From NCBI GenBank assembly GCA_001898625.1, contig MKUP01000013.1:1-64000 (forward strand): a DNA stretch of 64,000 nucleotides, read 5' to 3'. A model generated the notes under the pieces. That model was not told where the DNA came from and made no database searches. It was given only the letters and a program-made list of their open reading frames with translations. Below are positions 45,729 to 55,310 of this stretch, in pieces (positions within the stretch are counted from its first letter, which is position 1; the number at the start of each line of letters is the position of its first letter). The translations under genes and the position numbers were made by a program. The stretch comes from Burkholderiales bacterium 67-32 (GTDB lineage Bacteria > Pseudomonadota > Gammaproteobacteria > Burkholderiales > Burkholderiaceae_B).

Positions 45729-45828
45729 CCAATGTAGCATATAGAGGGCTCCCCCCTACGCGCTGACGCGCGCCCCCCAGGGGGCGATGCGGGTGGACCG
45801 GCAAAGCCGGATCCACCGCATCCTGGGG
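45729..45828 (+). repeat. Structured intergenic repeat, copy R1
   Basis: This is the first of four copies of a roughly 90-bp element. The order is CCAAT edge, a run of C, TACGCGC-TGAC-GCGCG hairpin, CGCCCCC/GGGGGCG hairpin, then a long stem whose outer pair is GATGC (45786-45790) with GCATC (45818-45822), continuing GTGGA/TCCAC and CCGGC/GCCGG around loop AAA, closing with CCTGGGG. It lies upstream of lon and faces copy R2 in inverted orientation. Confidence 0.8.
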
Positions 45829-45878
45829 TAACAACGGGCTGGCGGGGACTGGCGATACTGCCTGGCATCTGTCGGGTT

Positions 45879-45926
45879 GGAAAAGAACAACGGCCTTGCG
45901 CGCAAGCAAGGCCGTTGTTCTTTTCC
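45879..45926. terminator. Bidirectional terminator between clpX and lon
   Basis: Two perfect 21-bp arms starting GGAAAAGAACAACGGCC surround a 6-nt loop. The arm ends give T-rich ends on both strands (GTTCTTTTCC), so it can stop transcription from either side. It is the likely end of the tig-clpP-clpX transcript. Repeat copies R1 and R2 flank it almost symmetrically. Confidence 0.85.
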
Positions 45927-45940
45927 TGATCGTTCCCCAG

Positions 45941-46030
45941 ACCCAGGGCACAGCGGATCCGGCTTTGCCGGTCCGCCAGTGCCGCCCCCTGGGGGGCGCC
46001 CGAAGGGCGTAGGGGGGGCCTACTTATTGG
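45941..46030 (-). repeat. Structured intergenic repeat, copy R2
   Basis: Inverted relative to R1. Read on the minus strand: CCAATAAG edge, C-run, CGCCC-TTC-GGGCG hairpin, CGCCCCC/GGGGGCG, then GGCAC/GTGCC (plus-strand 45979-45983 and 45947-45951), GCGGA/TCCGC, CCGGC/GCCGG with loop AAA. Its CCAATAAG edge is inside clpX and supplies its last codons and stop (…AAT AAG TAG). Confidence 0.8.
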
Positions 46031-52359: not shown

Positions 52360-53190
52360 ATGAGCCAAGACCTCAAGACCGTCATTGAACAAGCCTGGGA
52401 AGACCGCGCCTCGCTGTCGCCCTCCTCCGCCCCCGCCGCCGTTCGCGAAGCCGTAGAACACGTCCTTGCCGGGCTGGACAAGGGCGAACTGCGCGTGGCC
52501 GAGAAGCAGAACGGCGACTGGACCGTCCACCAGTGGATCAAGAAGGCCGTGCTGCTGTCCTTCCGCCTGGAAGACAACGTCGTGATGGGCACCGGCCCGG
52601 GCAGCGCCCTGCAGTTCTACGACAAGGTGCCCAGCAAGTTCGCCGGCTACAGCGCCGAAGATTTCAAGCAGGGCGGTTTTCGCGTCGTGCCGCCGGCCGC
52701 CGCCCGCCGCGGCTCGTTCATTGCCCGCAACGCCGTGCTGATGCCCTCTTACGTGAACATCGGCGCCTACGTCGACGAAGGCACCATGGTCGACACCTGG
52801 GCCACGGTGGGTTCGTGCGCGCAGATCGGCAAGAACGTCCACCTGTCTGGCGGCGTGGGCATCGGCGGCGTGCTCGAGCCGCTGCAGGCCAACCCCACCA
52901 TCATCGAAGACAACTGCTTCATCGGCGCCCGTTCGGAAGTCGTCGAAGGCGTGATCATCGAAGAAAACTCGGTCCTGTCCATGGGCGTGTTCATTGGCCA
53001 GAGCACCAAGATCTACAACCGCGAAACCGGCGAGATCACCTACGGCCGCGTGCCCTCGGGCTCGGTGGTCGTTCCCGGCAGCCTGCCCTCGGCCGACGGC
53101 AAGTACAGCCTGAACTGCGCCGTGATCGTCAAGCGCGTCGATGCGCAGACCCGCGCCAAGACCAGCATCAACGACCTTCTGCGCGCCTGA
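52360..53190 (+). CDS. dapD: Tetrahydrodipicolinate N-succinyltransferase DapD
   Basis: DapD transfers succinyl from succinyl-CoA to tetrahydrodipicolinate. The 276-aa protein has the N-terminal helical domain ([19 protein letters not shown]) and a left-handed beta helix of hexapeptide repeats ([55 protein letters not shown]), ending [12 protein letters not shown]. The ribosome-binding site is poor, and the sequence just upstream is repeat R3, so the element may affect its expression. Confidence 0.96.
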
Positions 53191-53218
53191 TTCCACGACT
53201 TCCCCCGCCGCGTCCAAC

Positions 53219-54349
53219 ATGACCACCTCCGTTCTCTCCCTGGTCGAAGACCTCATCCGCCGACCTTCGGTCACGCCCGTCGACGAGGGCTGCCAGGCCC
53301 TGCTGATCGACCGGCTGACCGCCCTGGGCTTCGCCTGCGAAACCGTCGAAGGCGGCGGCGTGGTCAACTTCTGGGCGCGGCGCGGCAACGCGGGCCCGCT
53401 GGTGGTGTTCGCCGGCCACACCGACGTCGTGCCCGCCGGTCCGCGTGAACACTGGAACACCGATCCCTTCGTGCCTACCGTGATCGACGGCATGCTGTAC
53501 GGCCGCGGCGCGGCCGACATGAAGAGCTCGATCGCCGCCTTCCTGGTGGCGGCCGAGGAGTTCGTCGCGCACCATCCCGACCACCCTGGTTCGATCGGCC
53601 TGCTGATCACCTCCGATGAGGAAGGCCCGGCCGTCCATGGAACGGTCAAGGTCTGCGACATGCTGGCCGCGCGCGGCGAAACGCCCGACTACTGCATCGT
53701 GGGCGAGCCCACCTCGTCCGCCCAGTTGGGCGACACCATCAAGAACGGCCGCCGCGGCTCGGTCTCGGGCCGCCTGACGGTCAAGGGCATACAAGGCCAC
53801 GTGGCCTATCCCGAAAAAGCCCGCAACCCCATTCATCAGGCCGCGCCCGCGCTGGCGGAACTGGCTTCCACCGAATGGGACCGCGGCAACGAGTACTTCC
53901 CTCCGACCACGTTCCAGATCTCCAACTTCCACAGCGGCACCGGCGCCACCAACGTCGTGCCCGGGGAAGCGGTGATCGACTTCAACTTCCGCTTCTCCAC
54001 CGCCAGCACGGTCGAGACGCTGAAGACACGCGTCCATGACGTCCTCGATCGCCACGGACTCGAATACGGCATCGAATGGTCGGTCTCCGGCCTGCCCTTC
54101 CTGACCCCGCGCGGCACGCTGTGCACCGCGCTATCCGAGGCCATCGCGGCGGAACTGGGGATCGAGGCAGAACTCTCGACCACCGGCGGCACCTCGGACG
54201 GCCGCTTCATCGCCCGGATCTGTCCCCAGGTGGTCGAGTTCGGCCCGGTCAACGCGACCATCCACAAGGTCAACGAGTGCATCGCCGTGGACAGCCTGGA
54301 GCCTTTGAAAAACATCTACCGGCGCACGCTGGAAGCATTGCTCAGATGA
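53219..54349 (+). CDS. dapE: Succinyl-diaminopimelate desuccinylase DapE
   Basis: This dizinc M20-family hydrolase removes succinate to give LL-diaminopimelate. The 376-aa protein has metal-site motifs [22 protein letters not shown] and SDEEGPA with CIVGEPTSS, a dimerisation domain, and the late [10 protein letters not shown] and [14 protein letters not shown] with the last metal histidine. It starts 28 bp after dapD and its stop overlaps the prmB start (ATGA). Confidence 0.96.
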
Positions 54350-55230
54350 CATCCCATCCCCTGCGCACCGTGCGCGACCTGATCCGCTATGCCGTGAGCC
54401 GCTTCAACGCCGCCGGCATCGCGCTGGGCCACGGCACGCTCGACGTCTATGACGAAGCCGTCTACCTGGTCCTGCACACGCTGCACCTGCCCATCGACCG
54501 GCTCGAACCTTTCGTCGATGCCGCCGTGCTCGACAGCGAACGCGAGGCCGTGCTGGCCATCATCGAACGCCGCATCGACGAACGTCTGCCCGCCCCCTAC
54601 CTGACCAACGAAGCCTGGCTGCGCGGCCGCCGCTTCTACGTGGACGAGCGGGTCATCGTGCCGCGCTCGTACATCGCCGAGCTGCTGGACGACGGTCTCG
54701 CGCCGTGGATCGACGATCCCTACGCGGTGGAGTGGGCGCTGGACATGTGTACCGGTTCCGGCTGCCTGGCGATCGCGGCGGCGGAGACCTTCCCGCACGC
54801 GCAGGTCGATGCGGTGGACATCTCGAAGGACGCGCTGGACGTGGCCCGCATCAACGTGGACGACTACGGCCTGCAGGACCGCGTGGCGCTGCACCAGTCG
54901 AACCTGTTCGAGGCGCTGCCTCCCGCGCAATACGACCTGATCCTGTGCAATCCCCCCTACGTCAATACCGACTCCATGAACGCGCTGCCGGCGGAGTACC
55001 GCCACGAGCCCAGCCTGGCGCTGGCCGGGGGCGCGGACGGCATGGACCTGATCCGGCCGCTGCTGGCCCGGGCCGCCGAGTTCCTGCAGCCCGACGGCAT
55101 CCTGGTGCTGGAGCTGGGCTACGAGAAGGGCTATTTCGAACAGGCCTTTCCCCATCTCGATCCGGTCTGGCTGAGCACCTCCGGCGGCGACGACAAAGTG
55201 TTGCTGCTCAGGCAGGACCAATTAGGATGA
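54346..55230 (+). CDS. prmB: 50S ribosomal protein L3 glutamine methyltransferase PrmB
   Basis: This is an SAM-dependent enzyme that methylates a glutamine in L3 during ribosome assembly. The 294-aa protein has the SAM motif [20 protein letters not shown] and the amide-methylase motif NPPY at N202, and the N-terminal helical substrate domain. The PrmB rather than PrmC assignment rests on overall length and the [19 protein letters not shown] segment. Its final codons (…CAA TTA GGA TGA) lie in the CCAAT edge of repeat R4. Confidence 0.92.
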
Positions 55231-55310
55231 AAGCCCCCCCCTACGCGCTGACGCGCGCCCCCCAGGGGGCGAAACTGGCGGACTGGCGGAGCCAGATCCG
55301 CGGTTTCCTG
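55218..55310 (+). repeat. Structured intergenic repeat, copy R4
   Basis: Same orientation as R1. CCAATTAG edge inside prmB, eight C, CGCGC-TGAC-GCGCG, CGCCCCC/GGGGGCG, then GAAAC (55271-55275) with GTTTC (55303-55307), GCGGA/TCCGC, and CTGGC/GCCAG with loop GGA, ending CCTGGAG. The outer pair and the inner CTGGC/GCCAG differ from the other copies on both arms at once. Confidence 0.8.

Follow-up and report, generated by a model that had tools for sequence, protein, structure and literature searches.

What is the structured repeat that occurs four times between genes in a 64,000-nt stretch of contig MKUP01000013.1 of Burkholderiales bacterium 67-32 (hereafter the window), and what might it do there? 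A first-pass annotation had described a ~90-bp element whose stems are kept by paired base changes. All four copies were recovered at the places and in the orientations given there, and the outer stems and the hairpin-1 swap from CGCGC/GCGCG to CGCCC/GGGCG read as quoted (Table 1). The copy placed at 45729-45828 is real, but the first ~20 bases of that span are flank, the repeat starting at a C-run. The element comprises ~86 nt and three hairpins. Copies A and B form an inverted pair between clpX (named by NCBIfam) and lon, with the terminator-like hairpin as its centre; relatives carry a similar centre, which has the opposite orientation in G005. The TAG stop of clpX is followed by the C-run of copy B from 1 nt on, and copy D begins 4 nt past the TGA of a prmB-like gene, with an ABC-F gene coming next.

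Table 1. Positions of the four element copies, the parts of copy A and the hairpin between copies A and B in the window.
Feature	Position	Strand	Description
Copy A	45744-45829	+	Covariance-model match; C-run, hairpin 1, hairpin 2, long bulged stem
Copy A hairpin 1	45759-45772		Loop holds TGA at 45764-45766
Copy A hairpin 2	45772-45785		
Copy A long bulged stem	45786-45822		Outer stem GATGC/GCATC
Two-way terminator-like hairpin	45880-45926	none	A-run, GC stem, T-run; read from sequence
Copy B	45940-46024	-	Outer stem GGCAC/GTGCC; hairpin 1 CGCCC/GGGCG
Copy C	52257-52343	-	Outer stem GGCAC/GTGCC; flanked by dapC and dapD and antisense to each of them
Copy D	55229-55314	+	Outer stem GAAAC/GTTTC; CTGGC/GCCAG

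The predicted fold amounts to -43 to -52 kcal/mol, with z = -2.1 to -3.0 versus shuffles (five copies, the four in the window plus one other of the host genome). A covariance model built from 43 copies, including those in the window (which score 94.5-105.3 bits), recovered at least 150 copies in the host genome. Because of these fold scores and this recurrence, the four copies are beyond chance. Further covariance-model searches bore out a family that extends beyond the window, and also beyond the host genus. Among genomes of that genus, which is probably Pigmentiphaga, the copy number ranges from 0 to at least 150, indicating that the element is dispensable, and a 4.6-Mb genome of another genus (G023) holds 133 copies, including head-to-tail copies at an 86-bp period. 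No full-length head-to-tail array is present among the best 150 host copies. Rfam 15 at the gathering threshold identified three tRNAs in the window and no match to the element, and at E<=1 over the element copies it gave nothing credible.

The strongest feature of the element, absent from the first-pass annotation, is its placement at stop codons. Among the 150 best-scoring host copies, with genes called by a purpose-made gene caller, 144 are intergenic, and 105 of these, in sense orientation, start at -17 to +15 nt from the end of a same-strand stop codon, versus 23.5 +/- 3.6 predicted by uniform placement within the spacers of the 114 sense copies. By the same count, the 3' end lies within 15 nt of a convergent stop in eight of the 144 and of a same-strand start in none. 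Of 42 copies from beyond the host genus, 29 are placed in a similar way. A divergent gene lies upstream of 29 of the 144 intergenic copies, window copies A and C included, so sense placement is not obligatory everywhere. No description of stop-codon anchoring of such repeats was found in the literature searched.

With most of the copies examined lying directly behind a stop codon, the element probably shapes the ends of mRNA tails, like the E. coli REPs. An intrinsic terminator was ruled out, since a T-run (TTTT within 15 nt past the element 3' end) follows the stem in only 3 of 150 copies. A translation brake, in which hairpins near the stop would stall terminating ribosomes and cut the output of the upstream gene, as reported for E. 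coli REPs that lie no more than 15 nt from it, seems quite unlikely: the 105 copies at stop codons do lie inside that limit (PMC12306157), and in 10 of 150 copies the gene stop is the element's own hairpin-1 TGA (UGA), but the element follows housekeeping genes such as clpX, and there would have to be some reason for braking genes in such numbers.

The stop before the element is TAG in 46 of 96 genes (a count that omits the ten whose stop falls inside the element) versus 51 of 252 background genes (odds ratio 3.6, p 9e-7). As an explanation, an element bringing its own 5' stop codon is weak: the 5' flank has no common sequence except purine richness, and of the 44 copies that do not closely follow a called stop (38 of them parsed), 18 have TAG/TAA before the C-run, which by a rough estimate is no enrichment. 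Element-free orthologs have the identical stop codon at C11:276480 (L070, L094, L104), C22:143623 (L121) and C10:242464 (L096), and the copy at G005:737718 follows a TGA common to the host genome (G000) and G007; the stop codon differs at two others (C26:11596 versus L149, C13:154820 versus L069). Near the 5' end of 11 of the 150 copies, the motif TAGAGG is found.

Pairing in the stems is held in 97.5% of cells among the own-genome copies and in 96.7% among copies outside the host genome, with both-side changes at 18 of 28 pairs in either set; the level of paired change in the own-genome set was matched by 0 of 500 shuffles. That paired changes keep the stems therefore holds, far above the shuffle and slide controls, whereas a reading of them as independent compensatory mutations does not, because in this genome the changes are borne by a handful of stem haplotypes, which can be swapped as blocks at orthologous sites. 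Whole stems have been exchanged in this way between orthologous copies, the outer-stem type differing in 17 of 50 comparable pairs, and part of the covariation signal may be recombination or palindrome copying between copies. Caution is thus needed more generally, as paired changes among the repeats of one genome can stem from block exchange and not directly from compensatory evolution. Inverted pairs of copies, which we take to be comparable with the BIMEs of E. coli, have had their centres flipped between relatives. Such swaps and inversions would fit an origin of the paired changes solely in gene conversion or template switching, whether inside one copy or from copy to copy, which would make them uninformative on selection for the fold. 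This is very unlikely, because such correction tends to erase a bulge, yet the bulged base of the long stem (a refinement of the fold first quoted) is A in all 92 distinct rows of the own genome and present in all 42 rows from elsewhere (A in 27, C in 13, T in 2). Also against it, these 42 rows (two from the same genus) contain 17 kinds of outer stem, 38 of the rows being perfect, 4 having G-U and 0 being mismatched, and mismatched arms are found in 9 of the 92 own-genome outer stems and in one chimeric stem of G007.

G-U pairs are scarce, with 24 in 2520 paired cells of the own copies (20 of these at one pair) and 34 in 1131 elsewhere (17 at that same pair); for comparison, 13 tRNAs have 7 in 154. 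RNA under selection might show more, suggesting that pairing may be kept at the DNA level. The structured RNA and the mobile palindrome, both offered in the first-pass annotation, are not mutually exclusive. Rare G-U is also what DNA pairing predicts for a purely selfish repeat, a non-autonomous mobile palindrome without cellular function, whose machinery would favour gene ends and C-runs and whose stems would be kept because folded DNA is copied. This possibility we regard as doubtful. The range of copy number within one genus favours it, as do two empty sites that hold a C-run, one where G000 lacks an entire inverted-pair unit that G007 has and one where L157 lacks a single copy, and a second sequence block found in some copies at the C-run of hairpin 2. 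However, the empty sites in L121 and, at G005:737718, in G000 and G007 have no C-run, the few empty sites aligned show no clear target duplications, and 12 of 14 copies on contig C13 have a counterpart at the same site in G007 (2 being missing there), which indicates slow movement.

Searches for mobile machinery likewise argue against a selfish repeat. One copy, searched against 72,556 plasmid and 50,697 phage records, had no match, and a RAYT/IS200 link was rejected for the host genome, where PF01797 (Y1 transposase, RAYT/IS200-type) had no match; nor had it in nine of ten other same-genus genomes. The single match among the 11 genomes of the genus is an open frame of 36 aa at the edge of a contig (G009), and the search control gave matches in 5 of 14 genomes. 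REPs with a RAYT are expected to bear a GTAG or CGTC tag at one end. Most own copies have CTAC (GTAG on the other strand) after the C-run, while in g14 and g17 some have CGAAGC or CGAGGC and others CGTACC. A selfish repeat alone also leaves the sense orientation and the 0-15 nt spacing from the stop unexplained.

The explanation that we favour, and to which we give about an even chance of being correct, is a REP-like element of mRNA 3' UTRs that recombination would have spread and kept uniform, with an inferred function. The element would be co-transcribed with the upstream gene, and its RNA would fold immediately downstream of the stop codon into a hairpin cluster of great stability, which could be a barrier to 3'-to-5' exonucleases and thereby define or protect the 3' end of the mRNA. 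As a second possibility, terminating ribosomes would meet the hairpins, which might affect termination or the release of ribosomes. Copies would multiply and stay alike by recombination, involving block exchange of stems between copies and inversion of the DNA that inverted copies enclose, and would be gained or lost, at some sites at C-runs. Tentatively, the element might be described as a stop-codon-anchored RNA/DNA module at gene ends in several betaproteobacterial genera, which would supply the 3' end and sometimes the stop codon, and would evolve by recombination (stem swaps, flipping centres) with no REP-type transposase. To our knowledge, mRNA 3' ends are poorly mapped in this bacterial group. 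If the favoured explanation is true, 100 or more genes per genome, in several of these genomes, have one common ready-made 3' end, and REP-like function can be tested in a genome whose search gave no RAYT.

The statement that the element has no published name is doubtful, since Bordetella repeats have been described under the names Bor/Bor-1 (PMC1590033, PMC2267715) and BRE (PMC3110155), of which Bor-1 and BRE are similar in size; going by their descriptions, the element probably belongs with Bor-1 and/or BRE. In the passages on Bor/Bor-1 (PMC1590033; PMC2267715), Bor is a 26-30 bp stem-loop repeat close to coding regions and said to resemble E. coli REPs, while Bor-1, intergenic and with a predicted structure, has 93 bp and 128 copies (78 full) in B. 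pertussis and 117 bp and 196 copies (92 full) in B. bronchiseptica; these passages mention neither the spacing from stop codons nor inverted pairs or block swaps. A size of ~90-117 bp, >100 copies, intergenic location and structure are common to Bor-1 and the present element, a resemblance and not a proof of identity. BRE is described as a ~90-bp, GC-rich, usually intergenic repeat with full and partial copies in Alcaligenaceae and Comamonadaceae, forming tandem arrays with zero or few nt between copies, and Northern blots show a ~70-nt RNA, bprJ, from the region of one such copy (PMC3110155, Hot et al. 2011). The arrays in G023 likewise have little spacer; by contrast, BRE has 1-29 copies per genome (PMC3110155, Table 2) and the present element at least 150. 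Of 12 lexA neighbourhoods, the BRE site quoted, one had a weak match (G152, 25.8 bits), none of the 12 genomes being a known Bordetella.

Bordetella repeats are listed among REP-like families without conserved terminal motifs (PMC3733652). According to passages of PMC12306157, deletion of REPs from 3' UTRs shortens mRNA half-life, and REPs within 15 nt of the stop cause ribosome stalling, 446 of 4,072 E. coli REPs falling within this limit (260 of 496 as quoted from an earlier study). The E. coli REP differs from the present element in having one hairpin of 20-40 nt, compared with three in ~86 nt, and in its RAYT association, no RAYT-type gene having been found in the host genome. In common with REPs, which are short, palindromic and intergenic, lie on the gene 3' side and are in part within 15 nt of the stop, the element is an extragenic palindrome near gene 3' ends, with 144 of 150 copies intergenic and 105 of these 144 at a stop.

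All four copies that the first-pass annotation had described in the window are present where it placed them, and each is built of a C-run, two hairpins (the second C5/G5) and a long stem that has a bulged base and a small loop. For copies A-D and one further host copy, the predicted RNA fold energy is -43.1 to -52.4 kcal/mol (z = -2.1 to -3.0).

Copies of the element in the window and sites of a second repeat block
Feature	Position	Strand	Site (gene names: NCBIfam)	Remark
Copy A	45744..45829	+	clpX-lon spacer	inverted pair with B, flanking a two-way terminator-like hairpin
Copy B	45940..46024	-	clpX-lon spacer	inverted pair with A
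Copy C	52257..52343	-	dapC-dapD spacer	
Copy D	55229..55314	+	spacer of prmB-like gene and ABC-F gene	
Second block	L024:2280-2450			
Second block	G000:C13:162876-162953			host genome
Second block	G007		site of copy D	relative

A covariance model built from 43 host copies was used to search the whole 6.66-Mb host genome and returned at least 150 copies. On the 292-kb contig C13, counted because it contains the window, 14 copies (one partial) were found at E <= 0.001, which extrapolates to about 320 copies in the host genome, or about 290 without the window. Of 11 genomes in the genus, seven hold at least 150 copies and the other four hold 43, 37, 4 and 0; copy number thus spans 0 to at least 150 within one genus (G010 and G009 versus the others). 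The covariance-model search gave no copies in ten more genomes, drawn from the family and order. Family-wide, under stricter filters, 25 of 151 genomes and 7 of 43 genera (host genus counted) gave matches, and one 4.6-Mb genome of another genus (G023) carries 133 copies, some in head-to-tail arrays with an 86-bp period. A pattern scan of named genomes includes, among the matches listed, Pigmentiphaga, Verticiella, Achromobacter, Rubrivivax, Roseateles, Ideonella and others.

Covariation of the stems was assessed across 99 selected loci, in the host as well as other genomes, that supplied 136 copies (134 distinct rows), and separately in copies outside the host genome (43 matches, 41 distinct rows, with two source loci from the host genus). 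Pairing, a figure favoured because the alignments were fitted to the covariance model, is kept in 97.5% and 96.7% of cells, respectively, with changes on both sides at 18 of 28 pairs in each. In the 136-copy alignment, none of 500 shuffles, through which the relatedness of copies persists, matched any of the five measures used, and pairing fell to 33-47% once the 3' partners were shifted by 1-3 columns. Among 92 host rows, 15 outer-stem haplotypes occur (82 rows perfect, three with G-U, nine with a mismatch, two having both), and 42 rows from elsewhere contain 17 (38 rows perfect, four with G-U, none mismatched). G-U is rare among paired cells (24/2520 in host rows, 34/1131 elsewhere); in a small control of 13 distinct tRNAs fitting a simple 12-pair template, taken from fetched loci of the host and relatives, it occupies 7 of 154 pairs.

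Placement was examined in the 150 best-scoring host copies and their flanks, using gene calls from a codon model whose training set was the window genes. Six copies overlap called ORFs and 144 are intergenic, comprising 114 in sense to the upstream gene, 29 with a divergent upstream gene and one without an upstream gene in reach. The element starts at -17 to +15 nt from the stop-codon end in 105 of the 114 sense copies, compared to 23.5 +/- 3.6 expected if these were spread uniformly over their spacers, and in ten of the 150 copies the TGA of the hairpin-1 loop is itself the stop of a called gene running into the element. Measured from the 3' end, a convergent stop is no more than 15 nt away in 8 of the 144 intergenic copies, and a same-strand start in none. 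Outside the host genus, 39 of 43 rows picked by score are in sense under the same codon model, and 31 start at -17 to +9 nt from a called stop, corrected to 29 of 42 copies (L284 and L100 are one locus fetched twice, and L290:1329 is a later array member; both were taken out); copies not at a called stop are mostly later members of arrays. TAG stops are commoner in element-bearing genes (46/96) than in other genes (51/252). For some antisense copies (e.g. host C10:455484 and C24:24404), the divergent gene has its called start ~7 nt away, which puts their opposite-strand G-run at the position of a would-be ribosome-binding site.

What needs explaining is that the element lies in sense and that it lies so close to the stop codon. 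REP sequences are known as exonuclease barriers. Both features would be accounted for if the element worked in the 3' UTR of the mRNA as REPs do, forming a barrier to 3' exonucleases and possibly also affecting terminating ribosomes; we infer that the element is transcribed and blocks nucleases. REP precedents for the 3'-UTR role and the ribosome effect appear in PMC12306157. The main rival explanation is that the element is selfish and targets the ends of genes. Element-free orthologs have the same stop codon at host sites C11:276480 (L070, L094, L104), C22:143623 (L121) and C10:242464 (L096), as do the element-free host and G007 for G005:737718 in another relative; the stop codon differs at C26:11596 (L149) and C13:154820 (L069).

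On C13, 12 of 14 host copies have a same-site copy in G007, and the two missing there have left element-like remnants. Conversely, the stretch compared holds 16 copies in G007, of which 12 match, two (one pair) are missing in the host and two are unmappable; of 11 copies in G005, two (clpX-lon) match, two are missing in both relatives and seven are unmappable. A C-run marks the empty site of the inverted-pair unit missing in the host and of the single copy C19:61525 missing in L157, which insertion into C-runs and deletion between C-runs fit equally well; none occurs at the empty sites of L121 or, for G005:737718, of the host and G007. Some copies carry, inside hairpin 2, a ~77-nt GC-rich second repeat block with an AGCCGC..GCGGC hairpin. 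With blastn this block gave 23 matches across the host genome, and its core gave none in the window.

Exchange between copies was studied by matching host sites, through upstream flanks, to 99 named loci selected for holding the element. From 96 comparisons, 46 were left out (30 with flanks short or <90%, five with the host copy unparsed, 11 without a simple element at the site). The outer-stem type is identical in 33 of the 50 kept and different in 17, with differences at 15 of 37 sites; some of the 17 are inverted-pair flips, and one, L106 at copy D's site, probably reflects failed parsing. In the clearest block swap (C12:252202 versus L129), both long-stem arms are replaced together, but the two loci agree in flank, in hairpin 1 and in an unusual hairpin-2 variant. 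Against G007, whose flanks are 94-97% identical, the stem type has changed at sites 154820 and 237118, and at 284101 G007 has a chimeric stem.

Host copies less than 600 bp apart form inverted pairs in 17 of 18 cases, with C-runs outward. Between species, the DNA separating such copies is exactly reverse-complemented at C22:139861 (L092 versus L140). At C10:446729 (host versus L135) it is reverse-complemented apart from a few substitutions, and at clpX-lon it is inverted in G005 versus the host. In a further relative, G008, the clpX-lon stem types are in swapped order, and this case is not counted as a flip because one motif occurs on either side of its centre. The flipped centres require nothing beyond homologous recombination between inverted copies; no recombinase is implied. 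Several centres are a shared imperfect palindrome (TCTAGTACC...GCTATCGCTGGC..., e.g. G000:C22:139861-140117), giving with the inverted pair a ~260-bp nested palindrome that can span the gap between convergent stop codons.

Bor and Bor-1 (PMC1590033, PMC2267715) and BRE (PMC3110155) partially resemble the element in size, location, copy number, arrays or host range. From these published descriptions, the element is expected to belong with Bor/Bor-1, with BRE, or with both. The available parts of the searched literature yielded no description of stop-codon anchoring, flipping pairs or block exchange in these repeats, and relative to that literature the strict stop-codon anchoring, the flipping of inverted pairs and the exchange of blocks appear to be new.
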